A stretch of 23,665 nt of DNA from a virus, in IMG/VR virus record IMGVR_UViG_3300044823_000094, positions 1 to 23,665 of that record, one strand, 5' to 3'. How positions within the stretch are numbered: position 1 is the first letter of the stretch; the number at the start of each line of letters is the position of its first letter. Below the pieces are notes generated by a model that was given only the letters and a program-made list of their open reading frames with translations, had not been told where the DNA came from and searched no databases. Positions 3,732-11,949 of the stretch are shown here, in pieces. The position numbers and the translations under genes are program-made.

Positions 3732-4983
3732 CACCACCACGCAAGCCGATGTTGCCGAAATCCGGCGAGCCCTCGACCTGTTGACCGCGCCCGGCGGCGT
3801 GGTCGAGATTCGAGCGTTGAAAATCCCCGGCCGTGGAAAGCCCCACATGGCGGCCGGCTACTTTACCGACCTCGACAAAGCCGCGGAAGCGGCGACGACT
3901 CAAGACACCCGCCAAGCCGCCGGCGTCTATCTTGTCTTGAACGAAGTAACCCCCGCTCTATTTGCCCGTTCACCGAATCAGATAACCGACCACCTCGACC
4001 CGACCACAAGCGACGGCGACATAGCCCGCCGGCGATGGTTGCCCCTCGATTTCGACCCGACCAGGCCGACCGGCGTTTCATCTTCCGAAGATGAACATTG
4101 CGCGGCCGAAGATGCGGCCCGAACTTGCGCGGCGTGGTTGTCTTCGCAAGGTTGGCCCGCGCCGATTCTGGCCGATAGCGGCAACGGGGCCCACTTGCTA
4201 TATCGCATCGACTTGCCTAATGATGACCGGAGCGGCAATCTTGTACGCGACACCATCGCAGCGGTGGCGGCAAGGTTCACCGGCGGCGGCGTTGACGTTG
4301 ACCGCAAGGTATTCAACGCGGCCCGGATATGGAAACTATACGGCACAACGGCCCGTAAAGGGCACGATATGCCCGATAGGCCCCACCGGCTGGCCGCGCT
4401 AATCGAGGTTCCCGATTCGGTCGAGGTGTTGCCCGTCGAGAGACTAAAGGCCCTTGTGGCAATGGTGGCCAAGCCCGAGCCGTCGAGAAACAACGGCAAC
4501 GGGGCGGCACAATTTGACCATCGGCTTGACGTTCCGAAGTGGTTGGGATCCCGCGGCGTTTCATTCCAATTGAAAGACAGGCCGGACAAACACGGCCGGG
4601 CGGTTTTTCTCTTGGAACAATGCCCGTTTGACGGCAACCACGGGAGCGGCGGCGAAACCGCGATTTTCCAGAGTGGCGACGGCGCACTCACGACGAGGGC
4701 AGCTGAGTTCTCTGCCGGGCTGTTCAACCTCATTCGTTCGATTTGGCGAAAGGAAACCGGTAAGCGGCTCTCGCGTATGCCCGACGATCTCGGCCGCATC
4801 GAACAATGTGACCCGACCTTGAGTATCCGCCTTGCGATGCAACAGGTTGCACCGTACATTAGGGACGGGCAACTACTGCCGGCGAAGTTCATCTGTCCGC
4901 TGGTCCGATCCGAAAATCCCGGCCGCGAGGCAGCGCAGAAGGCGTGGGCCACGCGGCGACGAAAGGCGGTGCAACATGGCTAA
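3724..4983 (+). CDS. AEP-type DNA primase (primase/polymerase-like)
   Basis: A protein of 419 aa starting at ATG 3724 with AGGGAGGGGG just upstream; an open frame to 3646 exists but lacks this signal. It carries the three motifs of archaeo-eukaryotic primases: hDhD as LDFD (D109, D111), SGNGAH (S152-H157) and the third acidic motif VDVD (D191/D193), followed by NAARIWKLYGT and a Lys-rich ARKG, as in phage and plasmid PrimPol-like proteins. The C-terminal part (about 275-400) has the CPFDGNH and GGETAIFQ segment often seen after such primase domains. No Walker A motif is present, so a helicase is not fused and none is visible nearby. It synthesises primers, perhaps also DNA, for phage replication. 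It overlaps the radical SAM gene by 8 nt. Confidence 0.85.
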   Translation: MVDTTTQADVAEIRRALDLLTAPGGVVEIRALKIPGRGKPHMAAGYFTDLDKAAEAATTQDTRQAAGVYLVLNEVTPALFARSPNQITDHLDPTTSDGDIARRRWLPLDFDPTRPTGVSSSEDEHCAAEDAARTCAAWLSSQGWPAPILADSGNGAHLLYRIDLPNDDRSGNLVRDTIAAVAARFTGGGVDVDRKVFNAARIWKLYGTTARKGHDMPDRPHRLAALIEVPDSVEVLPVERLKALVAMVAKPEPSRNNGNGAAQFDHRLDVPKWLGSRGVSFQLKDRPDKHGRAVFLLEQCPFDGNHGSGGETAIFQSGDGALTTRAAEFSAGLFNLIRSIWRKETGKRLSRMPDDLGRIEQCDPTLSIRLAMQQVAPYIRDGQLLPAKFICPLVRSENPGREAAQKAWATRRRKAVQHG

Positions 4984-6533: not shown

Positions 6534-8550
6534 CAAGCGGCGGTCGGACTATGCCGGTTTGCGACGATCGGCTATTCCGAGCCGCATTCGTTCCATGCGC
6601 CAATTCGCCTTGGAGGAGATTCGTCCTGACGGCGGTCCTCGTTCCGGTCTACCTCTGCGAATCGAGAGTCAGCCGTTTACTGGTTTGTTGCTGACAGAAC
6701 TGGATCGCATTGACCCGGCTACTGACGGAAAGTATTGGAATCGAATCAATCTTATCGGCACGCGACAGGCGGGCAAAACCCTTTTTGGCTCAGCACTGCC
6801 CGTGCTCTTTCACACGTGCGAAGTCGGCGAGACGGTTATTTATGGCGTTCCCGATCTCGATATGGCCAAGGACAAGTGGAACAGCGACTTGTTGCCCGTC
6901 TTTGAAAAGACACGATACCGCGAACTACTGCCAAGTTCCGGCGGCGGATCGCGCGGTGGCTTTGCGATGACCATGCAGCTTCGCAACGGGGCACGCATCC
7001 GCTTTATGACCGGTGGCGGTGGGGCAATGGGCCGTGGTCGAGTCGGCTTTACCTCCCGCGTGCTTGTTGTAACGGAACTGAACGCATTCGGCGTGTCGGT
7101 GGAAACTTCCGAGGAGGGTAACAAGCTGTCGGAGCTTGAGGGATGCGTGGCGGCGTTTAAGAACGCGATGATCTATCAGGAATGCACCGTCACTACCGAA
7201 GATTGTTTGATTTGGAGTCATTATGTTAATGGCAGCCATTCGCGGATCGTGTTGCCGTGCCCGCATTGTCGCAAGTGGGTCGAGATGGAGCGAGAGCAGC
7301 TTGTGGGCTGGCAAGAGTCCGAGTCTCAAGGACAAGCGGAAGAAACTTCAGAGTGGTATTGCCCGAAGTGCGGAGAACAAATAACCGAGCCGCAGCGCGT
7401 TGCCATGAATCTTGCCGCCAAGGTTTTGCATGGCAAGCAAGAGATTGACGAGGCCGGGGAGATTCATGGCGATATGCCGCCGACGCGCACGTTGGGCTTC
7501 CGCTGGTCTGCCTTTCACAACATTCTTAGCACCGACGCGAAGATTCTTGGCCGGCAGGAATGGGAAGCGAAGCAAGCGGCGGACAAGAACCTCGCCGAGC
7601 GAGCAATGTTGCAATACCGCTGGGCTGTTCCATACAAGCCGGAACTTATTGAGGGGGCACCGCTCGATTACAGGGACGTGATGAAGCGAACCGGCTCGCT
7701 TCCGAAGGGTGTCATTCCGGCCGACACCGAATATCTGACGTTGGCCATTGACCCCGGCAAGCGATTCGCGTGGTGGATATTGATGGCATTTCGGAAGACG
7801 GGACAGATTCATATTCCCGCCTCTGGCGTGTTGCATGTACCGGTAGAGGCCATGAAGGAAGAGGTTGCTTTACTCGCCACGTTGCGAGACTTCCGCGATG
7901 TCGTTTTAGCGGGTTGGGAAGTCCAAGGCAGCGGAGTCAAGCGGTCGCCGGATATGAACTGGATTGACGCTGGCCACTTGCCGGGAACCGTTCATCAGTT
8001 TTGCGTCGAGTCGGGAACGTATCCATCGGGCAAGTGGATGGCAACAATCGGGCGTGGCAGTAGCACGATGGAGAAACAGGTGTTCGGCTCTCCCAAGCGA
8101 CTCAATAACGAGATTCGCAAGATTGGCGACGGCTGGTTTGTCAGTCGGCAGCAGCAGCATCAATCGTGGGTTGCGACGGTCAATTCCGATGCCTGGATTA
8201 TCTGGTTTCAGAATGGTCTTAAGCTGCCGACGAAGGATTCTAGCGGCAATGCGGTTGTAACGCCGGGCGCTATCACGCTGTACGATCCTGGCAACGACAG
8301 AGACTTGCAGAGTGAATATAAGAAGTTGACGATGCAGTTTGCCAACGAATACCTAGAAACGGAAATGATCGAGGGACGTGGCATGGTGCAAAATTGGAAG
8401 CATAAGGGACGCCACGATCACTTGGACTGCGGTAAGCTGGCGGCGGCTGCTGGAAACTATCTCGGTTTTTCGTTGACCTCGGTTAAGGGTCCATCGTCTG
8501 TACCCACGCTGTCCGACTGGATGGCGTCAAGACAGCAGGGGGCGAGATGA
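6463..8550 (+). CDS. Terminase large subunit, gpA-like
   Basis: The protein has 695 aa from ATG 6463, which has GGAA 7 nt upstream; ATG 6493 is an alternative without such a signal. The packaging ATPase Walker A motif is GTRQAGKT (residues 99-106, K105). The Walker B region is VLVVTELNAF, with Thr204-Glu205 where many relatives have Asp-Glu. A four-Cys zinc finger follows (CPHC at 266-269, CPKC at 300-303), as in lambda gpA-type large terminases. The nuclease region includes LTLAIDPG and ends in HDHLDCGKLAAAAG, the conserved C-terminal segment of this family. The enzyme pumps and cuts phage DNA at the portal. Its stop overlaps the next start (ATGA at 8547-8550). Confidence 0.9.
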   Translation: MNLRTILTIIMAIVIASHPLLRSDKRRSDYAGLRRSAIPSRIRSMRQFALEEIRPDGGPRSGLPLRIESQPFTGLLLTELDRIDPATDGKYWNRINLIGTRQAGKTLFGSALPVLFHTCEVGETVIYGVPDLDMAKDKWNSDLLPVFEKTRYRELLPSSGGGSRGGFAMTMQLRNGARIRFMTGGGGAMGRGRVGFTSRVLVVTELNAFGVSVETSEEGNKLSELEGCVAAFKNAMIYQECTVTTEDCLIWSHYVNGSHSRIVLPCPHCRKWVEMEREQLVGWQESESQGQAEETSEWYCPKCGEQITEPQRVAMNLAAKVLHGKQEIDEAGEIHGDMPPTRTLGFRWSAFHNILSTDAKILGRQEWEAKQAADKNLAERAMLQYRWAVPYKPELIEGAPLDYRDVMKRTGSLPKGVIPADTEYLTLAIDPGKRFAWWILMAFRKTGQIHIPASGVLHVPVEAMKEEVALLATLRDFRDVVLAGWEVQGSGVKRSPDMNWIDAGHLPGTVHQFCVESGTYPSGKWMATIGRGSSTMEKQVFGSPKRLNNEIRKIGDGWFVSRQQQHQSWVATVNSDAWIIWFQNGLKLPTKDSSGNAVVTPGAITLYDPGNDRDLQSEYKKLTMQFANEYLETEMIEGRGMVQNWKHKGRHDHLDCGKLAAAAGNYLGFSLTSVKGPSSVPTLSDWMASRQQGAR

Positions 8551-8672
8551 GCGTCTTTGACATGGGAAAGAATCAAGAGAAGTACAATCGCACATATCGG
8601 TTTCGTCAGCCGGTTCATCCCGGCCCACGTGAGTCATGTTCAATTTGTAACCTAACCCCAAGGAGTCCAATC
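8547..8672 (+). other. In-frame 42-codon extension before the GroES-like domain
   Basis: The GroES-like frame is open back to ATG 8547, which overlaps the terminase stop and has a GGGGG-type ribosome binding site. It would add 42 residues containing CSIC and no GroES similarity. Either the protein has two starts (152 and 110 aa), or 8547-8672 is a leader. The sequence just before 8673, with AAGGAG and stop codons in the other frames, looks like an intergenic leader. Confidence 0.4.
8660..8665 (+). promoter_or_regulatory. Perfect ribosome binding site deciding the GroES-like start
   Basis: AAGGAG at 8660-8665 lies 7 nt before GTG 8673, the point where GroES similarity begins. Confidence 0.7.
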
Positions 8673-9005
8673 GTGAAAGTAGAAGAGATTCGTATCGAAC
8701 CCATCGGCGACCATGTTGTTGTGAAGCGAGACAAACCGCAAGAGAGAAGTTCCGGCGGTATCATGTATCCCGAGATGGCTCAGAAGTACCTCGATACTGC
8801 CGTGGTTGTTGCAGTCGGTCCCGGTCCACTGGTGGTTGTTGGCAATCAGGTTGTGCGCGGGCCGATGCAGACCAAGGTCGGCGATCGCATCACCTTGCCA
8901 TCATCGGGCTACGGCTTTCGCGTCGATCCGTTCGACAAGGAGACGGACTACGAAGTCCTGCATGAACATCAGATTTACTCGATACTAAGAAAGGAAACCC
9001 CATGA
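8673..9005 (+). CDS. GroES-like co-chaperonin
   Basis: A 110-aa protein from GTG 8673 (152 aa if started at 8547). The GroES fold is recognisable: IEPIGDHVVVKRDK at the start, a mobile loop with SSGGIMYP (residues 26-33) in the place of the canonical GGIV/L contact with GroEL, then VVVAVGPGPL, VKVGDRITLPSSGYG and a final EVLHEHQIYSIL strand. Canonical GroES has about 95 residues, so the length fits. It presumably caps the host GroEL ring; T4 gp31 is the known precedent for a phage GroES needed for capsid folding. It lies in the packaging operon. ATGA at 9002-9005 couples it to the next gene. Confidence 0.85.
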   Translation: MKVEEIRIEPIGDHVVVKRDKPQERSSGGIMYPEMAQKYLDTAVVVAVGPGPLVVVGNQVVRGPMQTKVGDRITLPSSGYGFRVDPFDKETDYEVLHEHQIYSILRKETP

Positions 9006-10471: not shown

Positions 10472-10531
10472 GCCCTGCAAGGCCCATACGACAACTTCGC
10501 CGCCGTGTTCTGCGTTCTATCCTTGCAGGGC
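10472..10531 (+). promoter_or_regulatory. 5' leader hairpin
   Basis: GCCCTGCAAGG (10472-10482) pairs with CCTTGCAGGGC (10521-10531), an 11-bp perfect stem enclosing a 38-nt loop. It sits at the predicted 5' end of the transcript. It may protect the RNA from decay or regulate expression. It is not followed by a T-run. Confidence 0.6.
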
Positions 10532-10568: not shown

Positions 10569-11264
10569 ATGGCGAAAGCCAAATCGCGTCCAGTCGCGTC
10601 TGATGATCTGCACAAAGTGGCAATTTCCGCACCGAAAATGCGGATTGCTACGTTCACCATCGAGGGAACCGCCCCTTACGTGCAGGAGCATTTTTCTAAC
10701 AAGTCGAAACTGTCGATGCAGGAGAAAATGGAGGCCGGCAGCGGCCAGGCGAAGAAAGGGGCCAAAAAGGCACCGAAGGACTTCGCAGCGGCGTGCGAGG
10801 AGGCAAAATACAAGCCGGCCGGCGAGAACTGGCCCAACGGTGCCCTTCCGGCGACGGCGTTTCGTACGGCAATGATTGACGCATGTCGGCTGGTCGATTT
10901 CAAGATGACCGTCGCCAAGGAAGCCGTGTTTGTTGTGGCCGAGGGCTACGACGTGAGCGATGCAATTCCGCTCATCCCGATCACCAAGGGCAAGCCGGAA
11001 ATGTTTTTGCAGCCGTTGAAGAACACAAACGGCGGGACTGACATTCGGTCGCGTCCGAAGTGGCAACCCGGCTGGCAGGCGAAGATTCAGATTCGCTACG
11101 ATTCGGATATGTTTTCGCTGGAGGATGTGACAAACCTGCTTGTGCGTGCTGGCGTTCAAGTTGGCATCGGAGCGGGCCGTCCGACGAGTAAGAAGTGTTC
11201 CGGCTGCGGCTGGGGAACGTGGAAAGTATTGGACGCAGTGAGGGATGAGATTGCGAAGGTGTAG
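10569..11264 (+). CDS. Uncharacterised phage protein, possibly RAMP/Cas7-like
   Basis: A 231-aa protein at ATG 10569 with GAGG 7 nt upstream. It resembles a phage protein family of unknown function that I have seen with a C-terminal VGIGxGRPxSK motif. Visible parts are a strand TIEGTAPYV (30-38), a Lys/Ala-rich linker (58-82), LPATAFRTAMIDA (93-105), and a glycine-rich loop from V196 to V220 (VGIGAGRPTSKK, then GCGWGTWKV) that also holds a CSGC pair. In RAMP (Cas7-like) proteins a strand with a PG(S)xxxRxAxR helix and a C-terminal Gly-rich loop bind RNA. The similarity is suggestive only. It has its own promoter and is followed in the same unit by the GTCNN array. It could equally be a single-strand annealing or other nucleic-acid-binding protein. 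Confidence 0.7.
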   Translation: MAKAKSRPVASDDLHKVAISAPKMRIATFTIEGTAPYVQEHFSNKSKLSMQEKMEAGSGQAKKGAKKAPKDFAAACEEAKYKPAGENWPNGALPATAFRTAMIDACRLVDFKMTVAKEAVFVVAEGYDVSDAIPLIPITKGKPEMFLQPLKNTNGGTDIRSRPKWQPGWQAKIQIRYDSDMFSLEDVTNLLVRAGVQVGIGAGRPTSKKCSGCGWGTWKVLDAVRDEIAKV

Positions 11265-11266
11265 AT

Positions 11267-11509
11267 ATGTTGGCGGGTCAAGTCAACGCTGTCTGGTCAA
11301 GTCGCGTCACGTCGCGTCACGTCGTGTCGCGTCGAGTCAAGTCACGTCAAGTCGTGTCGAGTCAACGCTGTCGCGTCGAGTCGGGTCGTGTCGAGTCGAG
11401 TCCGGTCACGTCATGTCACGTCACGTCTGGTCAAGTCGAGTCTATGCTGTCGCGTCGGGTCTGGTCGCGTCGCGTCTTGTCGAGTCTGGTCCGGTCCCGT
11501 CTTGTCTAG
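11267..11509 (+). CDS. Possible repeat-encoded Ser/Arg/Val peptide
   Basis: An 80-aa frame opens at ATG 11267 with AAGGTG 5 nt upstream and runs through the array to a TAG at 11507-11509. Because the DNA unit is 5 nt, the peptide repeats every 5 residues as V-x-S-[RSGC]-[RHQP] (for example VTSRHVVSRRVKSRQ). All three + frames are almost stop-free, since GTCNN can only form a stop when NN is TA. The open frame is therefore weak evidence of translation. The phase of the peptide changes at each four-base separator. Confidence 0.25.
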   Translation: MLAGQVNAVWSSRVTSRHVVSRRVKSRQVVSSQRCRVESGRVESSPVTSCHVTSGQVESMLSRRVWSRRVLSSLVRSRLV

Positions 11510-11517
11510 TCAACGCC
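11277..11517 (+). repeat. Array of 45 GTCNN pentamers in blocks of 2, 15, 15 and 13
   Basis: From 11277 to 11517 every unit is GTC plus two variable bases. The 45 units are interrupted only by CGCT (11287-11290), CGCT (11366-11369), TGCT (11445-11448) and CGCC (11514-11517). The first two full blocks have exactly 15 units, giving a 79-bp super-period. GTC is invariant in 45/45. The NN pairs are AA 8, GC 7, GA 7, AC 6, TG 4, GT 3, two each of GG, CG, TT and TA, and one each of AT and CC. AG, CA, CT and TC are absent. The complementary triplet GAC never occurs on the + strand inside the array, so the RNA would have little self-pairing. It starts 12 nt after the 10569 gene and ends 4 nt before a terminator stem, so it is transcribed as a 3' UTR or processed RNA. 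Confidence 0.95.
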
Positions 11518-11521
11518 GTAT

Positions 11522-11556
11522 AGCCCGCATGGGGAACCATGCGGGCTTTTTTCTTT
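11522..11556 (+). terminator. Strong intrinsic terminator closing the array unit
   Basis: AGCCCGCATGG (11522-11532) pairs with CCATGCGGGCT (11537-11547) across a GGAA tetraloop and is followed by TTTTTTCTTTT. It is a textbook rho-independent terminator. Confidence 0.95.
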
Positions 11557-11562
11557 TATTGC

Positions 11563-11599
11563 TTACCACAGGATGGTAATCGCATCCGCTGAGATTACC
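11563..11599 (+). promoter_or_regulatory. Mutually exclusive hairpins before the portal operon
   Basis: TTACCA (11563-11568) can pair with TGGTAA (11574-11579). The overlapping GGTAATC (11575-11581) can instead pair with GATTACC (11593-11599). The two folds compete for the same bases. The region lies between the array terminator and the 11623 gene and may be a leader switch or an operator. No convincing promoter was seen in it. Confidence 0.35.
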
Positions 11600-11622: not shown

Positions 11623-11949
11623 ATGGCCGATGCCCTCGATGATTTTGCTTTGCTCAAGCAATTCCGCGCCGCCGCTCTATCGGCGTTAGGTGCTGGCGAC
11701 TACAACACCGCTATCAATCAGGCGTTGGCCGCCCAGCTTGTTCTCTCGACAATGCCCGGCCACCTCTCCCGTTCGCAAGGTGGCGGCGGCAATCAGTCCC
11801 TAGCGTGGGATTCGGAGTCGATCGATCGCTTCGTCGTTCGTTGCCGCCAAGCCCAATCTGCCGGCCTCGGTGTTCAGACCGCCAATATCGTCTACTCGCC
11901 GCCGCAGCAAACCGGCGCGCAGGCGTGGCAGCCGGGAGGCGAGTTCTAA
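11623..11949 (+). CDS. Small protein at the gpW position (head-tail joining candidate)
   Basis: A 108-aa protein located directly before the portal gene, as lambda W lies between terminase A and portal B. The N-terminus is helical (DDFALLKQFRAAALSALGAG, INQALAAQLVLSTMP). A Gly-rich turn follows, then NQSLAWDSESIDRFVVRCRQ and a Pro/Gln-rich tail. The helix, turn, helix layout is compatible with a gpW-like connector, but the length is greater than gpW (about 68 aa) and the similarity is weak. The ribosome binding site is poor. Its stop overlaps the portal ATG at 11949. Confidence 0.55.
   Translation: MADALDDFALLKQFRAAALSALGAGDYNTAINQALAAQLVLSTMPGHLSRSQGGGGNQSLAWDSESIDRFVVRCRQAQSAGLGVQTANIVYSPPQQTGAQAWQPGGEF

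Follow-up and report, generated by a model that had tools for sequence, protein, structure and literature searches.

What keeps three bases of a five-base repeat constant while the other two are left free to vary? The question is raised by an array at positions 11277-11517 of a viral contig (IMG/VR record IMGVR_UViG_3300044823_000094; the whole stretch of 23,665 nucleotides is referred to here as the window). The original prediction regarded this array as unlike any described element. Such an element is, however, described in a preprint of April 2026 (bioRxiv 2026.04.26.720920; PMC13142463), with GGY in place of GTC.

The system in question, the Viral Interference Programmable Repeat (VIPR), was first found in phage SUSP1 and is reported as the first RNA-guided system to be read through a noncontiguous code (PMC13142463). 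Its protein, Vipr, is a RAMP, and its vrRNAs consist of 9-16 GGY/NN repeats and a 3' tail; the NN dinucleotides pair with double-stranded DNA, one target base being skipped per repeat, and the complex represses transcription in competing phages, satellites and prophages (PMC13142463). The preprint speaks of seven VIPR types with a GGY/NN "or a related consensus", and of an accessory gene, vap, that is "typically" present in VIPR loci (PMC13142463). No other paper on VIPR was found in the literature.

Structure and probable transcription of the array

Parsing confirmed that the array contains 45 GTCNN pentamers, with GTC intact in 45 of 45 and NN taking 12 of 16 dinucleotides, and that its + strand lacks GAC. 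The units fall into blocks of 2, 15, 15 and 13, closed by CGCT, CGCT, TGCT and CGCC, respectively; the three long blocks and their closers are as originally predicted. The single five-base register once claimed for the array does not hold, as the register moves at each 4-nt closing element; the 79-bp super-unit is thus 15 x 5 + 4, and a 79-bp period is also detected by TRF. Six GTC triplets at 5-nt spacing are matched 28 times in the window and the reversed pattern, used as a control, not once (0), which excludes chance as the source of the spacing. Since the NN letters of blocks 1 and 2 are identical at just 10 of 30 positions (hand count from the unit list), the array is not a simple recent duplication. 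The features of the locus are as follows, with protospacers predicted by analogy from the 1-nt skip rule of PMC13142463:

10434..10461, + strand: possible promoter TTGACA-16-TTTAAT upstream of vipr (weak; read from the sequence)
10569..11264, + strand: vipr gene, 231 aa, phrog_4652 family (match E 1e-10), predicted RAMP fold
11277..11290, + strand: remnant block of 2 GTCNN units + CGCT (array parse)
11291..11369, + strand: putative vrRNA 1, 15 GTCNN units + CGCT; predicted protospacer TGNAANGCNACNGCNACNGTNGCNGANAANACNAANGTNGANAA
11370..11448, + strand: putative vrRNA 2, 15 GTCNN units + TGCT; predicted protospacer GCNGANGGNGTNGANGANCGNACNATNACNACNTGNAANGANTA
11449..11517, + strand: putative vrRNA 3, 13 GTCNN units + CGCC; predicted protospacer GCNGGNTGNGCNGCNTTNGANTGNCGNCCNTTNTANAA
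11522..11547, + strand: intrinsic terminator, 11-bp stem, 4-nt loop, then a T run

The array begins 12 nt downstream of the end of vipr, and its two-unit block may be the leftover of a further vrRNA. The strong terminator predicted to follow the array is indeed present directly 3' of it, making transcription of the array probable. In contrast, the expectation that the RNA should stay open was not borne out, the predicted fold being as stable as those of dinucleotide shuffles (MFE -80.7 kcal/mol, z = -0.37). The possible promoter was not reported by a consensus scan, which accepts a -10 box only if its second base is A. The vipr leader (10472-10531) contains an inverted repeat with perfect 11-bp arms, GCCCTGCAAGG...CCTTGCAGGGC, around a 38-nt loop, possibly an operator or an RNA hairpin. 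No Rfam family, CRISPR families included, reached its gathering score on the window, and a hammerhead reading of the array was ruled out on this basis.

Recurrence of GTCNN arrays and their association with vipr

The collection search suggested at the outset proved decisive. At least 119 stretches with eight GTC triplets at 5-nt spacing occur in IMG/VR, and those listed fall into two kinds: plain microsatellites with a single NN, and high-diversity arrays, which mostly show 5-13 NN types and often occur several to a contig. A related pattern was matched by 51 stretches in 84,980 cellular genomes. Almost all of these are simple tandem repeats, and the clear examples of high-diversity, multi-array loci are four MAG contigs, from Geobacteraceae (L154), Gemmatales (L162), Blastocatellia (L176) and the FCB group (L187). 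The Gemmatales contig (MAG KatS3mg105, BPJP01000018) contains a giant VIPR-like region (L162:4700-6560), in which 22 GTCNN arrays, mostly with GTCA-GTC boundaries, follow a Vipr gene over a stretch of about 1.8 kb; this is by far the largest guide set among the loci of this analysis.

An all-against-all comparison of ORFs brought out a protein family present at 48 of the 66 array loci retained; the product of the window gene at 10569-11264 is a member. Two other apparent families were artefacts: one of ~137 aa, common to 23 loci, is antisense to vipr, and one of 45 members consists of ORFs across the arrays themselves. Among the IMG/VR matches listed, a profile of the genuine family found a Vipr homologue at 46 of 61 high-diversity loci and at 3 of 58 low-diversity loci (cut at an entropy of 1.9; the three exceptions, at 1.66-1.84, lie slightly below it); because the profile was partly built from array loci, the 46 is not an independent figure, whereas the contrast with the microsatellite loci is. 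Conversely, when 160 loci were picked by protein alone, exact-triplet arrays (at least 6 units, within 2.5 kb of vipr and on its strand) were present in 90, and a further 24 had arrays with one degenerate position, as against 0 of 160 mononucleotide-shuffled controls. High-diversity GTCNN arrays are also seen where the fetched stretch holds no Vipr gene (L033, L037, L040, L042, L055, L067, L081, L101, L120 and others); these are candidates for contig ends, or for guide-only elements using another element's Vipr.

The Vipr protein

The associated family, phrog_4652, is of unknown function and has no Pfam family; it was matched by 44 of 44 aligned family members, which share a conserved end, G-x-G-x-x-R-P...G-R-F. 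A single-protein search with the window Vipr gave no matches, and a family alignment was required. Against PDB 36pp (SUSP1 Vipr), the family profile scored E 3e-42 when it included a Felixounavirus row close to SUSP1, and E 9.7e-11 without the cultured-phage rows; the latter is therefore the unbiased figure. The window protein, modelled with AlphaFold (pLDDT 86, pTM 0.80), resembles Csm3/Cas7-type RAMPs in a Foldseek search of the PDB (best E 1e-6, probability 1.00, TM about 0.46). Judged by profile and predicted structure, the product of 10569-11264 is a RAMP and belongs to the family of the SUSP1 Vipr.

Taken as a whole, the co-occurrence of arrays and Vipr, the RAMP fold and the 36pp profile match make it very probable that the window array belongs to a VIPR locus of a tailed phage, with GTC as handle, NN as guide and three vrRNAs silencing competitor DNA.

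Comparison with known systems

The likeness to the SUSP1 system extends to the RAMP homologue itself, the adjacent arrays of a triplet plus NN, the presence of several vrRNAs per locus, the phage-encoded setting and the codon-like NN, and the blocks of 13-15 units fall inside the published range of 9-16 (PMC13142463). The window differs in its triplet (GTC, not GGY), in its closers (CGCT/TGCT/CGCC, with no structured tail seen between blocks) and in having no recognised accessory (vap) gene in the contig. The GTC handle, the repeated change of triplet across the family and the missing accessory are new, although the "related consensus" of the preprint may list GTC.

Homologues of Vipr also occur in cultured phages, including Cy-LDV1, Quico and its relatives, ODay, Trine, LESphi2 and Felixounaviruses. 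Arrays of a triplet plus NN were found near vipr in all six cultured phages examined (Cyanophage Cy-LDV1, Mycobacterium phage Quico, Gordonia phages ODay and Trine, Pseudomonas phage LESphi2 and Escherichia phage VpaE1), every one with GGC or GGT rather than the GTC of the window, beside a homologous (phrog_4652) Vipr. The odd GTC array is thus a case of a general triplet-NN system. Several of these GGC/GGT arrays are unannotated, as in Quico (L192:3600-3890, upstream of gp57), ODay (L193:4560-4760) and VpaE1 (L196:3040-3540 and 4640-4950), and the neighbours of the arrays in these three phages are hypothetical proteins.

The predicted fold of the window Vipr is common to the class 1 CRISPR RAMPs (Csm3/Cas7), and a protein filament that periodically interrupts guide-target pairing is likewise shared by class 1 CRISPR RAMPs and VIPR (PMC13142463). 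In contrast to class 1 CRISPR systems, the window has no CRISPR array or cas genes (no cas family was found among the ten window proteins scanned), and its 5-nt repeat is built into the guide.

Proposed guide code and target searches

If coding DNA is read with its wobble base skipped, the NN dinucleotides should look like codon positions 1-2, a test that needs no target database. Measured as summed log-likelihood against genes of the same contigs, positions 1-2 account for the NN of GTC arrays better than do positions 2-3 (+42.7) or 3-1 (+219.3), with a bootstrap by contig of 0.0006; GGC arrays behave alike (+69.2 and +217.4). Positions 1-2 are favoured individually in 26 of 40 contigs, and are not favoured by block 3 of the window taken alone. 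This codon-phase signal agrees, indirectly, with the 1-nt skip rule.

Direct searches gave no target. A local scan of 277 arrays against a small set of 2.6 Mb, with skips of 0, 1 and 2 and with shuffled guides, showed no excess at skip 1, and four exact 8-pair scans of IMG/VR with the window guides yielded 33 loci, none extending beyond chance. At up to 3 mismatches, one guide of the Geobacteraceae MAG found no target in 76 genomes, nor did one of the Gemmatales MAG in 102 genomes.

Diversity of the repeated triplet

The sense triplets of the protein-picked homologues are mostly GGC, followed by CGC, GAC, GTC, GTT and GGT. The reverse form of GGC, GCC, is never dominant, and the arrays therefore run in the orientation of vipr; sense GAC and sense GTC are accordingly treated as two different triplets. 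A quick tree of 115 Viprs, with many weak branches and with labels drawn from arrays no more than 1.8 kb from vipr, requires a minimum of 21 changes of triplet class (shuffled mean 49.8), and the starred branches alone carry at least 5 changes each for GGY, GAY and GTY. Viprs up to 79% identical use differing triplets (L343, GAC; L350, GGC). A mutual-information search for triplet-determining residues gave no clean column beyond phylogeny.

The window Vipr pairs with L197 (57% identity; GTC, some GTT) inside a mainly GGY clade. Its triplet lies outside GGY itself; since GGC, GGT, GTC and GAC are all used within one clade, GTC can be regarded as a related consensus. It can be suggested, tentatively and at somewhat less than even odds, that several, possibly mutually exclusive handles (GGY, GTY, GAC and CGC) have arisen by repeated joint recoding of Vipr and array, the window being of the GTY type and working without the accessory of its clade. 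As a separate observation, CGC is the invariant sense triplet at Vipr loci L351-L355, L306 and L348, with up to 9 arrays; such a handle is at odds with a G-N-Y rule.

Block ends, accessory genes and genomic neighbourhood

In the clade of the window, successive blocks have a 4-nt element between them, for which GGCA (93 matches) and CGCA (29) are the commonest sequences; such separators are present, too, at L197 and L230, in GTC arrays, and at L217, in GGT arrays. The window departs from the clade in having CGCT-type block ends rather than GGCA; CGCT, TGCT and CGCC are its own version of the 4-nt separator, which may mark the end of a vrRNA. A conserved, structured 3' tail between the window blocks was sought and not found, only 4-nt separators being present, and the last block (13 units, CGCC) is followed by the terminator hairpin.

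A phrog_15946-type protein is encoded by every one of the 73 relatives in the clade for which 1.5 kb or more of sequence downstream is available. Neither this type nor wHTH-like families gave a match anywhere in the 23.7-kb window contig, which may be incomplete. As vap is described as typical of VIPR loci, its absence is not taken to exclude the window from them. The gene adjoining vipr is phrog_15946 in Cy-LDV1, Quico and ODay, and phrog_5926 in LESphi2 and VpaE1; neither was seen in the window. A second family of small proteins, of about 160-195 aa, lies between the arrays of 27 loci of the GAC-type clade (L154:1995-2474, L029:5362-5886 and 20 other distinct sequences); winged-helix-like by eye and without a Pfam family, it is a candidate accessory different from phrog_15946.

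The window locus is situated between terminase-side genes and the portal gene, with an unassigned 108-aa ORF (11623-11949) intervening between array and portal gene. A GroES-like co-chaperonin of the phage's own (Cpn10, E 4e-15) is encoded at 8547-9005, adjoining the terminase gene.

Alternative explanations

Four other explanations of the array were weighed. Slippage may have built a pentanucleotide microsatellite whose NN was later blurred by mutation, and both the pure GTC pentamer microsatellites among the IMG/VR matches listed and the 79-bp TRF period would suit such an origin. Mutation, however, should strike GTC as often as NN, and GTC is unbroken throughout; as the Vipr gene accompanies diverse arrays rather than microsatellites, and NN is codon-like, this origin is highly improbable. 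Very unlikely, too, is a role at the DNA level rather than as RNA, in which Vipr or some other phage protein would bind the array as a centromere, an origin, an operator or a packaging site. The regular half-turn spacing and the intergenic position of the arrays, in the window between the terminase-side and portal genes, are as such sites would have them, whereas NN variation would be useless there, the orientation is fixed relative to vipr (sense GGC dominant, never GCC), the protein has the predicted fold of guide-RNA-binding RAMPs, and the GGY homologues have been shown to act as RNA guides (PMC13142463).

Triplets at 5-nt spacing in RNA are also read by TRAP, the RNA-binding attenuation protein, so that the array might specify a regulatory RNA bound by a ring or filament, in which any NN would simply be tolerated and which would have no target in DNA; the searches run did, after all, find none. 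TRAP spacers carry no information, whereas the NN of these arrays hold a codon-phase signal, and the window protein is modelled as a RAMP, with a fold unrelated to the TRAP ring. As DNA is moreover targeted by the GGY members (PMC13142463), a regulatory RNA of this kind is given very little weight. Least credible of all is translation of the array into a low-complexity protein. ORFs at 11245-11523, 11267-11509 and 11388-11579 do span or overlap it, but NN has to be TA before GTCNN can yield a stop, and open frames across the array therefore come automatically; codon phase is broken by the 4-nt block ends, and the homologous GGC, GAC and CGC arrays would encode unrelated peptides.

Proposed mechanism

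In the favoured reading as a VIPR locus, the GTC triplets are most likely the handle gripped by the neighbouring Vipr and the variable NN pairs most likely spell the DNA target; GTC would be conserved because it is held by the protein, and NN variable because it is the guide. Beyond sequence and fold, the steps that follow are carried over by analogy from the GGY systems of the preprint (PMC13142463). The gene at 10569-11264 would produce Vipr, a small RAMP protein, and the array would be co-transcribed with it up to the terminator, the transcript giving rise to three separate vrRNAs of 15, 15 and 13 repeats. Vipr subunits would line up along each RNA, every subunit holding one GUC and presenting the next two bases. 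Successive NN would then pair with the double-stranded DNA of a competitor (another phage, a satellite or a prophage), one base being skipped per repeat, and this pairing would silence the target gene.

Two causes had been offered for the 5-nt spacing. A per-subunit protein footprint is the likely one; a half-turn DNA footprint is unneeded, as the repeat is best read as RNA held by a Cas7/RAMP-like protein. The original interpretation thus survives in part: GTC is kept, NN is free and the array is probably transcribed, while the open RNA and the undescribed element have been given up.

Significance

Triplet-NN arrays beside a phrog_4652 gene mark VIPR loci even in well-studied cultured phages, where the genes are annotated only as hypothetical. 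In the lineage of the window, as in several others, the published GGY handle has been replaced by another triplet. The repeated changes on the tree, together with close Vipr homologues that use different triplets, suggest that the handle is evolvable. If so, swaps between close homologues could serve to map the residues that read the triplet, and VIPRs that differ in their handles might operate side by side in one cell; were the handles mutually exclusive, no VIPR would read the guides of another resident in the same cell.
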